Of a stretch of 64,000 nt of DNA, positions 59,932 to 64,000 are shown piece after piece (the first letter of the stretch is position 1; each line of letters starts with the position of its first letter). The notes under the pieces were generated by a model. That model was not told where the DNA came from. It made no database searches and saw nothing but the letters and a program-made list of their open reading frames with translations. The stretch lies in NCBI GenBank assembly GCA_011032825.1, contig JAADJZ010000038.1, positions 248,001 through 312,000 on the forward strand, given 5' to 3'. The translations under genes and the position numbers were made by a program. The stretch is from Massariosphaeria phaeospora (taxonomy: Eukaryota > Ascomycota > Dothideomycetes > Pleosporales).

Positions 59932-60704
59932 ATCTCTTTGTGCGCGCAAGCTGTCCGCAGGTACGTTTCGCTCGAGCAAAGTCTGTCTGGAGTGTCACTG
60001 CTGATGCGCAGATGTAGGGCCTTGAACACGGGATCAACCACAGAAACATGATGGCCCTGCCCGATCTGCTCTTACAGCGTGTCATGTTTCCTGGAGACTC
60101 CGATCAAGAACAAGGGTCGAAGGACACGTAGATAGCTTGGACTCATGTCCGCCCCCATTTGTATTCCCTAAAGACACTCTTTGATATCAGCAATATATTG
60201 ATCTTGCCGGCCGGCATCGTATTCACTCTCCACGGGAGACATATATTGGTCTTATCAGTGCTTGTTCAACCTACGTTTGCGCGACTTGTAATCCTCATTG
60301 TGGAATACTCTTGCGAGCCATGAAGCTCCGCCAGCAGACTTAGATGGGGTTTCACTTGCCGGTGTTGGTTTCGGCAACAGCATGCGCGAATTGTTAAAGG
60401 CTTATGTGGTGATAGGGAGCTCCCGTTCCAAAGCGATATTAAGGGACCGACGAGCGAGCGATTGGGTATAATCGACGGGGAGGAATGTCCACGAGGCTTC
60501 CGGTGAGGCACAGCACGTCCGGTGAGGCACGAGGCACAGCACCTCGGCGAGCTTATGGTCGTCTTCGCCACATCAAGCGCTTAGGCACCGACGAAGTATT
60601 GACCAGAAGGTACTGTCGTAGTAGAAGAAGCTGGAAACTTGATGGACAAGTGATGCCGGTCGTAGGTAAGGCTTGGTGTAGCGCGGACATTTCGTGTTCG
60701 CCTG

Positions 60705-60853: not shown

Positions 60854-62215
60854 ATGACGTTCTTTGATGAGCTTGCTGAAACCGAAGGCGACGAGGAATT
60901 CAAAGCTTGGTTGTCAAAAATGATCGATGTGAAACAGGAAATCGTTGAATTCGTTGCGAGTCGACGGGAGGGTAATGAAATTGGAGAGTTCGACAGCTAC
61001 CGGAAAGGTTCTTTCAACCTCAGCCTTGTCGTTAGGTTCAGCAATGGTCCGAAAGCTGTAATACGCTTCCCGAAACCAGGACACACCGCGACATGCCTTC
61101 GGGACGAGAAGGTCAGAAACGAGGTCAATTTTATTAGCTGCTTAATGGAGTTAACGACTATTCCGGTACCCCGTGTGGTGAGTTGGGGAACGACTGAAGA
61201 GAGTCCCCAGCTGCTCGGTCCCTTCATGATCATGGATTACATCGATGGAACTTCATTAGCGACCATATTGAAACAGCCAACAGACTCGGAAAAAGACGAA
61301 GTGATCCTCGTCACCGACGTGGATGAAATGGTATTGGACGGCATCTACGAACAGCTTGCGGACTATATGCTGCAACTCGCCCGCCTCGACTTCTCCCTGA
61401 TCGGTGCGATAGCGAAACATAGCTCCACCGATAAGTGGACGGTCGATCAAAGACCGTTGACGTACAACATGAACGAATTGGCGACTGTGGTGTCAAATTA
61501 CCCCACAGAAGGGTTTCCTACCGTCCCTTTCACGTCCGCGAAGACCTATCTCCATGCGCTAGCTGATGAGCATCTTATACATCTTCGAACTCAGCGTAAT
61601 CTTGCCGCGGACCCAGAAGACGCTAGGAAGCGTTTTATTGCACGTCATCGGTTCAAACAGCTTGTCTCACGCTACTGTCCGGATGACACCGACACCGGTC
61701 CTTTCAAGCCTTTCTGTGACGACTTGCAGCCTACGAATATGCTCGTGGATCCAGATACTCTCCGAATTACGGCCGTGCTGGACTTCGAGTTCACCAACTC
61801 TCAGCCATCGCAGTTCGCATATGACCCCCCTTGGTGGCTGCTCCTCCTCGGCCCGGATATGTGGCTTGAGAACCATAGTATGGAAGAATTCACGAACCGT
61901 TACATACCAAGGATGGAACAATTCCTACGAGCTTTGGAACGTGTTGAAGCGACACAAGAGTCGCGTGGCGGTCGCCGAGATAACGTACGTCTCTCTGAGG
62001 AGATGCGAGACTCTTGGGCGACCGGTAGATTCTGGTTCGATTACGGAATCAGGAAGAGTTTCGATGTTGACGCGGTCTACTGGGCAGCGCTTCATCGGGA
62101 GGGGGACGATGATTTTCTTCGCAATGAAATGAAAGAAGAGATGGAGACGTTCGTGGAGATGAAGATGGAGCAGTTGAAAGCTTATGATGCGGAGTGCAGG
62201 GAACGGTTCTCTTGA
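60854..62215 (+). CDS. APH-fold phosphotransferase-like protein
   Basis: A single exon of 453 aa. It has the aminoglycoside-phosphotransferase/choline-kinase-like fold: Gly-rich/beta-strand region SYRKGSFNLSLVVRFSNGPK, Lys/Arg strand AVIRFPKPGH, a Glu-bearing helix (RNEVNFISCLMELTTIPVPR), hinge FMIMDYIDGTSL, catalytic loop FCDDLQPTNMLVD and metal-binding motif VLDFEFTN. In the loop the canonical H-x-D is C-D-D, as in many fungal paralogues, with the catalytic Asp and the Asn (LQPTN) kept. Such genes are greatly expanded in Pezizomycotina, and the substrate is unknown. It is the last intact gene before the telomere repeats, and its promoter overlaps duplicated DNA. Confidence 0.82.
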   Translation: MTFFDELAETEGDEEFKAWLSKMIDVKQEIVEFVASRREGNEIGEFDSYRKGSFNLSLVVRFSNGPKAVIRFPKPGHTATCLRDEKVRNEVNFISCLMELTTIPVPRVVSWGTTEESPQLLGPFMIMDYIDGTSLATILKQPTDSEKDEVILVTDVDEMVLDGIYEQLADYMLQLARLDFSLIGAIAKHSSTDKWTVDQRPLTYNMNELATVVSNYPTEGFPTVPFTSAKTYLHALADEHLIHLRTQRNLAADPEDARKRFIARHRFKQLVSRYCPDDTDTGPFKPFCDDLQPTNMLVDPDTLRITAVLDFEFTNSQPSQFAYDPPWWLLLLGPDMWLENHSMEEFTNRYIPRMEQFLRALERVEATQESRGGRRDNVRLSEEMRDSWATGRFWFDYGIRKSFDVDAVYWAALHREGDDDFLRNEMKEEMETFVEMKMEQLKAYDAECRERFS

Positions 62216-62431: not shown

Positions 62432-62532
62432 GGGTTAGGGTTAGGGTTAGGGTTAGGGTTAGGGTTAGGGTTAGGGTTAGGGTTAGGGTTAGGGTTAGGG
62501 TTAGGGTTAGGGTTAGGGTTAGGGTTAGGGTT
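62432..62532 (+). repeat. Interstitial telomeric repeat tract (TTAGGG)~17
   Basis: There are 101 bp of perfect TTAGGG units on the + strand, the G-rich strand running toward increasing coordinates. This is what the right end of a chromosome would carry. The sequence nevertheless continues for another 1.5 kb. The array has no mutations, so it is either young, a real former chromosome end, or an assembly junction. Frames called across it on either strand are artefacts. Confidence 0.97.
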
Positions 62533-62613
62533 GTATGTAAAGTAAAATGATTCGATTGGATTTGGTCTTTCTGCAAAGAAGAGTCGTCGAAATGCCTTGG
62601 TTCGCAAGACACC

Positions 62614-62652
62614 TTTCGTTTCTTGTTGTATCTACAGAAAGAAACTCATCAG
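62614..62652 (-). ncRNA. Candidate hammerhead-ribozyme core
   Basis: On the minus strand CTGATGA (62652-62646) is followed by GTTTCTT, a 14-nt loop, AAGAAAC (a perfect 7-bp stem II) and GAAA (62617-62614), the conserved core order of hammerhead ribozymes. Directly 5' is ATTC. Downstream, ATC-GAAT (62556-62550) could supply the cleavage triplet and a 4-bp stem I, but stem III is not convincing. Penelope-like elements are known to carry hammerhead motifs, which makes the location meaningful. It is unproven. Confidence 0.4.
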
Positions 62653-62874
62653 GAATGAGGGGAGAGCTGTTTATATACATTGGAATCGGGGGGAAGTTCC
62701 TCCGAGTTGTCCACTTGCTGCGCCGCCGGAAGTTTGGGCTTCCGGCTGCTGCCTAGCCTTTGCAGGGGCCAAGTGCGAGTGGAGGAGCCAAGACGATGCA
62801 GGACGTTGTGCTGTAGAACGGGCAGCCCTGAAAGTCTGTCAGTAATTGGTGGGTACTAGGGTCACTTAAGGTTC

Positions 62875-62886
62875 GGGTTAGGGTTA
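62875..62886 (+). repeat. Second short telomeric tract (two GGGTTA units)
   Basis: GGGTTAGGGTTA lies ~340 bp beyond the main tract in the same orientation, preceded by a degenerate GGTTC unit. Two units can occur by chance, but the position and orientation fit a second chromosome-end junction between stacked element copies. Confidence 0.4.
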
Positions 62887-63388
62887 GCGCCTTGGCGCCA
62901 GGCCCTTACCCAAATCTTCTGTTTCCAGAAACCGCAATGGTCGACCCAGATCGAAACAATACCTTCATATCACTAACAGACTTTTCCCACAAGCTAGCAG
63001 CCTTCTTTTGAAACAAGTTGTTCTCACGCGTAGTTGTCCGCTGCGCGAGTGTTTCCCTAGATTTCCAAGCGTCCGCGCCGTTGCCAGCACTTTCATTCGT
63101 CCATCCAAGTACTTCACAAGCGCAGCGGTCGTTCCGCCGTTTCCCAGGGTCCTTGAATCGCAAAGGCGACGCCACTCCGCGACGCCCTCCCCCCAGGGGG
63201 AGTATCATACCCGAAGGAGCATGCGGAGCAGTGAAACTAGCAAGGGCAGCGACAGGTCTTACAGGTCTTACATCTCAAACTTAACTCGACCTTCGCGACG
63301 CACTTTCCCTAGGGGAAGCGCATGCAAAGGAGGAGAAAGGGACGAGAATGCCATGCGCTGAAGCTGCAACCTGGATAACTAAACAGGC

Positions 63389-64000
63389 TCAGAGCGGAGA
63401 GTAGGATAATCCGGTATCCAGGGAAGACACATTTACCGACAGCTCCTCAATGTCGGTCTCTTCGATTTCCTTGTAAAGGATGCTTCGATTTACCGCCCGA
63501 ACGAGATCCCACATGGATCTAGTCCGTTTTTTGGCAACGATACACTGCGGTGGGTACGGTAGGTCCGAGGGTCCAGCTCGAACCCATTCCGATCGCATGT
63601 CGTTCCAGATGGCGGAGGAAGAGACCTGGTCCCACACAGGGTTATATTTAGAGACGGCAATGATTGCATCACGTGCGACCCTAGTTTCCAGCCCGGAACT
63701 AGGGAAGTACGATCGCCATTGGACCTGTCGTCCCCAGGAGTGTAACACCTGTTTTGGCCAGCCGCGCGCTCGGAGCCTCGACATAAATGTCGCCTTCCAT
63801 GTCAGAAAGTATATCTCCTTGTAGCATATTGCGCGGATCCGGCAGAGCTCGCCTTTGACCAGCCCTTTCTTGACCGAGAAAGGGTGGAAGCTTGCCCATG
63901 GGAGGTATTGATGGTGGTTTAGCACCTTGTTGAAGGGTGCGAAACACACCGCCGCCGACTCAGGGTGCGTGTGGAAGCGTACGTCGAGGAACGAGAGTTC
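63389..64000 (-). CDS. Penelope-like retroelement reverse transcriptase, C-terminal part (endonuclease-deficient type)
   Basis: A minus-strand frame enters at the window edge and runs 203 codons to a stop at 63389. It begins ELSFLDVRFHTHPES, the FLD-x-x motif that closes the RT domain. It then has the block LNHHQYLPWASFHPFSVKKG followed by GLVKGELCRIRAIC and LRARGWPKQVL. This order (YLP-x2-S-x-HP ... KG-x2-KGEL-x-R ... RARGYP) is characteristic of Penelope-like RTs of the Athena/Coprina kind. After it I see no GIY-YIG endonuclease domain, only ~110 residues of unassigned sequence. The RT catalytic YxDD region would lie to the right, outside the window. The element's 3' end points toward the telomere tract at 62,532. 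The frame is open, so recent activity is possible. Without a database search this rests on motif memory. Confidence 0.65.
   Translation of the reverse strand, partial: ELSFLDVRFHTHPESAAVCFAPFNKVLNHHQYLPWASFHPFSVKKGLVKGELCRIRAICYKEIYFLTWKATFMSRLRARGWPKQVLHSWGRQVQWRSYFPSSGLETRVARDAIIAVSKYNPVWDQVSSSAIWNDMRSEWVRAGPSDLPYPPQCIVAKKRTRSMWDLVRAVNRSILYKEIEETDIEELSVNVSSLDTGLSYSPL

Follow-up and report, generated by a model that had tools for sequence, protein, structure and literature searches.

The last part of the 64,000 bp window analysed here, which covers positions 248001–312000 of contig C32 (JAADJZ010000038.1) of Massariosphaeria phaeospora, contains a reverse transcriptase (RT) element attached to a tract of telomere repeats. 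This is probably an endonuclease-deficient, telomere-associated Penelope-like element (PLE), resident in a host that also has telomerase. The anatomy of the element, its position and polarity at contig ends, its constant 3' boundary, its tandem arrays, the telomere-capped truncations of its 5' end and its C-to-T type decay are all observed in the assembly. The genome is 42.1 Mb in 51 contigs, and "ends" are contig ends throughout; C32 itself ends at 314,762, which is 2,762 bases past the window.

Element structure and the telomere boundary

The tract occupies 62432–62532 on the + strand and is a perfect run of 16.8 TTAGGG units (period 6, 100% match, 101 bp), beyond which comes the minus-strand RT frame at 63389–64000, both as reported in the original prediction. 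All 15 occurrences of TTAGGGTTAGGG in the window are within this tract, against 0 expected. The tract is read here as a former chromosome end, and its length is inside the 81–140 bp span of the ten terminal tracts read. The G-rich + strand tract is followed by the antisense of the element, with the element 3' end on the tract; the boundary reads ...GGGTT followed by GTATG, or a mutated form of this. Element 3' boundaries are in one register in 36 of 36 cases from the 18 end stretches read, bearing out the polarity first proposed, in which the 3' end adjoins telomere repeats. Tracts of at least four telomere units are present at 25 of these boundaries, and the other 11 are at short joints within tandem units; six of 42 pieces, which begin inside the element, are left out of the count.

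The junction at 62532/62533 is known from the assembly alone. The exact four-unit telomere matches (n=174) all lie on the + strand, apparently an effect of assembly or trimming. Such odd end handling would fit an assembly chimera at the end of C32, yet the identical boundary recurs at further contig ends where the inward flanking DNA differs, making a chimera very unlikely. CCCTAA starts no contig. Four left ends were read, those of C29, C50, C46 and C2, and each stops within 2–21 bases of an element match.

The unit is approximately 4 kb and is made up of a pseudo-long terminal repeat (pseudo-LTR, here R, approximately 355 bp), ORF1, the RT frame and a further pseudo-LTR; the joints carry short telomere motifs. 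The 3' R is at 62533–62887 (− strand), its 3' end adjoining the tract. A second R starts at window coordinate 66429 (L009:6429) and is identical to the first in 333 of 333 bases, after which the contig ends. The short joint between the 5' end of the body and this further R reads GGATAGGGTTAGGGTT. In all 11 complete bodies the 5' end leads straight into a further R, and two R copies were read for each of C32, C8, C18, C11 and C2. The pseudo-LTRs of PLEs come from a tandem or partial-tandem arrangement (PMC11167929). An internal telomere-like motif, TTAAGGTTCGGGTTAGGGTTAG, is found at the joint between R and the body (62866–62887, + strand), where the 5' ends of other copies cluster. R also contains a TATATAA box (62671–62677, − strand), present in 33 of the 33 R copies examined; copies of 61 bases or fewer are left out of this set, which also serves for the hammerhead counts below. 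ORF1 has a frame of 237 codons upstream of the RT frame and is similar, in profile comparison, to the N-terminal region of longer homologues (hhalign probability 84%, E 7e-6). In the C32 copy an in-frame stop, read by eye, occurs soon after an upstream ATG, at approximately 66300–66400 (L009:6300–6400), and ORF1 may be interrupted in this copy.

Other copies had been expected at contig ends and this is where they are located. A protein search of the genome gave 44 matches, none further than 28.7 kb from a contig end, and a DNA search with R gave at least 45 matches on 16 contigs, all within 29.8 kb. The end zone holding all of these is at most 7.2% of the genome, and none of the 45 DNA or 44 protein matches is a copy deep inside a contig. 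Since the R search scored 40 of 44 first-look candidates, its count is a lower bound; both searches score the best candidates and are not exhaustive. Polarity agrees in 42 of 42 copies in the DNA set and in 42 of 42 in the protein set, with contig C46 (3 of 45 DNA and 2 of 44 protein matches) left out of these counts. The 5' ends (n=32) are telomere-capped in 23 cases, cut by the contig end in seven, and run into non-telomeric DNA in two (C21 and one on C46). Six of the 23 capped ends are at the joint of R with the body and 17 are at different places. The C21 copy (C21:573240–574399), the 5' side of which enters non-telomeric DNA, is approximately 13 kb from the contig end and has possibly been internalised by rearrangement. 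The first half of C46 (10,775 bases) is composed of solo R units and truncated copies, with mutated telomere tracts between them.

The reverse transcriptase and a candidate ribozyme

The RT frame (ORF2) has its C-terminal 203 codons in the window (63389–64000, − strand) and continues to 65545, for 718 codons from stop to stop in the contig (window coordinates 63389–65545; L009:3389–5545). The in-window part alone has no Pfam match; the whole frame matches RVT_1 below its cut-off (E=4.9e-6, 26.8 bits, cut-off 29.6), and YIDD is found at residue 484, beyond the window edge. A total of 139 RT homologues were found, and counts use the best 120 of these. The RT catalytic motifs are retained in 119–120 of the 120 listed, among which YIDD, KxHK and DKNLG are near-universal. 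These three are presumably PLE motifs. An AlphaFold2 model of the RT (31 sequences) has a mean pLDDT of 82.6 and a pTM of 0.77, and the solved folds closest to it are telomerases. The telomerase RTs (TERTs) top the fold rankings, with a lead over the group II and R2 RTs of approximately 3 Z units in the top rows that vanishes in the lowest TERT rows. The motif in the extended frame and the telomerase-like predicted fold agree with the Penelope-like identity originally proposed.

In an RT tree of 40 rows with a midpoint root, the window protein groups with P0001 (100/100) and, further out, shares a clade with Ascochyta lentis; named basidiomycete relatives fall outside this ascomycete-type clade. 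None of 34 pattern matches on viral contigs was confirmed as a relative. NCBIfam gives antiviral RT matches far below cut-off. PF26215 and PF28514 are annotated on many of the RT homologues, and neither is listed in a Pfam scan of six homologues.

Endonuclease deficiency had also been predicted, and the GIY-YIG pattern is absent from ORF1, from ORF2 and from 120 of the 120 homologues listed. Pfam searches at E up to 10 return nothing for ORF1 and nothing besides RVT_1 for ORF2; integrase and RNase H, hallmarks of LTR retrotransposons, are thus found in neither. MoTeR of Pyricularia oryzae and FoTeR of Fusarium oxysporum are likewise ascomycete telomere-linked retroelements with truncated copies (PMC12857005, PMC8381367), and a non-LTR retrotransposon of their type, cutting the telomere repeats with a restriction-like endonuclease (REL), would have the same address in the genome. 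The REL pattern C[X2]C[X6]H[X3]C, as given in PMC12857005, is however not found in ORF1 or ORF2, which have no CxxC whatever, and the predicted fold is closest to telomerase, with R2 beneath 17 TERT rows. It is extremely unlikely that the element belongs to this type.

R contains a candidate hammerhead ribozyme core at 62589–62652 (− strand), with CTGATGA, a stem II of 7 bp, GAAA and a stem III of 10 bp, and a predicted cut after 62589. Pseudo-LTR, hammerhead and TATA features are described for PLEs (PMC11167929, PMC3846280). The core was first spotted by eye in the RNA fold of R and later counted by script. It is intact on the R sense strand in seven of the 33 R copies, the other 26 being altered by C-to-T or G-to-A, and it occurs once in the window when both strands are counted. 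Among 600 random 64-kb sequences with a similar dinucleotide composition, 19 have such a core with both stems of at least 4 and none has one with a stem II of 6 and a stem III of at least 8, these limits having been chosen post hoc. As RNA, R is only moderately more stable than its shuffles on the sense strand (z −1.9; other strand z −0.3). Rfam finds no match on the element locus (stretch L009) at E up to 1 and nine matches on stretches L010 and L011 at E up to 10, all below gathering. A 268-bp piece of R gives two sub-gathering matches, including Hammerhead_3. A hammerhead origin of the genomic 5' ends was considered but is not claimed: three of the 23 capped ends come near the predicted cut (+56 of the second R) without falling on it, at +18, +38 and +40.

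Decay, tract lengths and proposed copying onto chromosome ends

Compared with the C32 copy, that of C8 has 68 transitions and that of C31 has 59, with no transversion in either. In each, 12 of the transitions run in the reverse sense, and the C32 copy must therefore also carry some changes. Transversions relative to C32 are present in C18 (29 in 3892 aligned sites) and C26 (10 in 1649), which have in common R letters that distinguish them. The older copies (C11, C24, C27 and C2) have 477–677 C>T plus G>A changes and a GC content of 35–40%, compared to 51–52% in the young copies. CpA is the most frequent context of the changed sites, without being exclusive. Most copies look to have been mutated by repeat-induced point mutation (RIP). 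Many interstitial tracts beside old copies have no perfect TTAGGG and read TTAGAG, and these look to have been hit by the same decay process as the copies. Tracts at old copies, for example L011:856–911, contain TTAGAG and TTAAAG, the middle G being changed most often, although CCCTAA is without CpA.

The tracts beside element 3' ends (n=25) have a mean length of 78 bp and a minimum of 38; one of the 26 internal tracts, which does not adjoin a 3' end, was dropped. Random insertion within a tract would yield such a minimum with p ~4e-5. When minimum and mean are taken jointly and a 24-bp detection floor is allowed, p is 0.006. This favours attachment near the tip, as support and not as proof, because old tracts may have changed length. 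The proposal that the element caps or extends the chromosomes is not demonstrated: a telomerase RNA-binding domain is encoded on C23, and the ten terminal tracts read are TTAGGG, with a mean of 117 bp.

In the mechanism proposed here, the TATA box of the upstream pseudo-LTR would drive transcription of an RNA that ends in or enters the C-rich telomere complement. This C-rich tail would pair with the TTAGGG 3' overhang, setting the register, and the element RT would use the chromosome tip as the starting point for copying the RNA, with no cutting of DNA. A 5' end left incomplete or eroded would be re-capped by telomerase. Head-to-tail arrays would grow with each further round, and tandem transcripts would be trimmed by the hammerhead if it is active. 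The amplification very probably also owes something to recombination among interstitial telomere tracts. The constant register and the tract lengths are consistent with use of the chromosome 3' end as the RT primer, and no more than consistent.

Several points weigh against this interpretation. The mechanism steps are all inferred. Much of the array structure, including the register, would also result from recombination between interstitial tracts or from breakage followed by healing, and the transitions-only differences of C8 and C31 from C32 fit DNA-level copying and recent retrotransposition alike. PLE membership is suggested by the motifs, the predicted fold, the anatomy and the fungal relatives; sequence matches in the PDB are weak (best E 0.085 with the single sequence, 1.7e-5 with a profile) and their ranking mixes bacterial RTs with TERTs, the bacterial RTs being above. 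The hammerhead is called a candidate because its stem I, of approximately 2 bp, is not convincing and its match to the type-III hammerhead of Rfam (Hammerhead_3) is sub-threshold at 13.5 vs 48.5 bits. Genomic 5' ends do not coincide with its predicted cut.

A subtelomeric segment that happens to bear an RT might instead have been amplified by recombination between interstitial TTAGGG tracts together with break-induced replication, the arrays being then mainly a by-product of telomere failure. Such an origin has been proposed for the 4-kb repeat of P. oryzae, which has a like architecture and amplifies upon TERT deletion (PMC8381367). It would also fit the match of the internal motif to the six capped 5' ends at the R/body joint and the differences of C8 and C31 from C32. 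Nevertheless, the RT catalytic motifs are retained in at least 119 of the 120 homologues listed, copies with transversions (C18, C26) and without them (C8, C31) are on different ends, and there are no very short tracts at the 3' ends. Telomere failure is therefore unlikely as the main source of the arrays, and copying by an endonuclease-deficient PLE is preferred.

The host flank and related fungal elements

The last long open frame before the telomere tract (60857–62212, + strand) is in host DNA outside the element. Pfam finds nothing in it, even with E allowed up to 10, although its motif FCDDLQPTN...VLDFEF is reminiscent of fungal aminoglycoside-phosphotransferase-like kinases. Besides itself, the DNA at 60500–62431 matches the genome at 64% over 844 of 1932 bases (C50) and at 85% over 120 bases. 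A PPR protein of the window has its best named match in Neocucurbitaria (order Pleosporales, 47%), in line with the ascomycete host first predicted.

Coprina of basidiomycetes and Athena of bdelloid rotifers are endonuclease-deficient PLEs that Gladyshev and Arkhipova reportedly found at telomeres in 2007. By published description they are like the present element in that the truncated 5' end receives telomeric repeats (PMC3846280).

An ascomycete case was originally considered notable in itself. This is not so, because a telomere-localised PLE family (family 4) of Mycosphaerella graminicola (Zymoseptoria tritici) was published in 2014 (PMC4522978). That family is similarly an RT element reported without an endonuclease domain, with TTAGGG at a 3' end that is directed away from the telomere. 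It is full-length at 26 of 41 chromosome ends, with truncated ones in tandem. It differs in being 3.4–3.5 kb, and the available part of the description, on which the likeness is based, mentions no pseudo-LTR, hammerhead or second ORF. In Parastagonospora nodorum, LINE/Penelope sequences are 2.6% of the repeats. Other mentions in the literature concern Agaricus bisporus, a table with Zymoseptoria, Macrophomina phaseolina, Cochliobolus in general and a G-quadruplex survey.

What is new would be the pseudo-LTR and candidate hammerhead anatomy, together with a likeness, by description, to the 4-kb subtelomeric repeat of foxtail strains of P. oryzae. That repeat is also approximately 4 kb, has an RT closest to telomerase RTs and has LTR-like direct repeats, element and repeats being bordered by telomere motifs; it too has truncated tandem copies, and some of its interstitial telomeres are of native length (PMC8381367). 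In contrast to the reading given here, its authors deem the resemblance to an LTR retrotransposon likely coincidental. From the published description, the P. oryzae repeat may be one of these elements. There is a slightly less than even chance that the two are of the same kind, namely a self-processing (hammerhead) endonuclease-less PLE with internal telomere motifs that seed re-capping.

The M. phaeospora element provides a well-resolved example, from an ascomycete, of an enzyme related to telomerase that shares chromosome ends with it. Thanks to the lightly mutated copies, the constant boundary and the candidate ribozyme, the idea of end-primed copying can be tested in vitro. A published puzzle, the survival of a fungus after it loses telomerase, also gains a new reading that can be checked. 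If the P. oryzae repeat is of the same kind, ascomycetes would hold a ready second system for maintaining chromosome ends, and the survivors of telomerase loss would rely on a retroelement rather than on a chance repeat.
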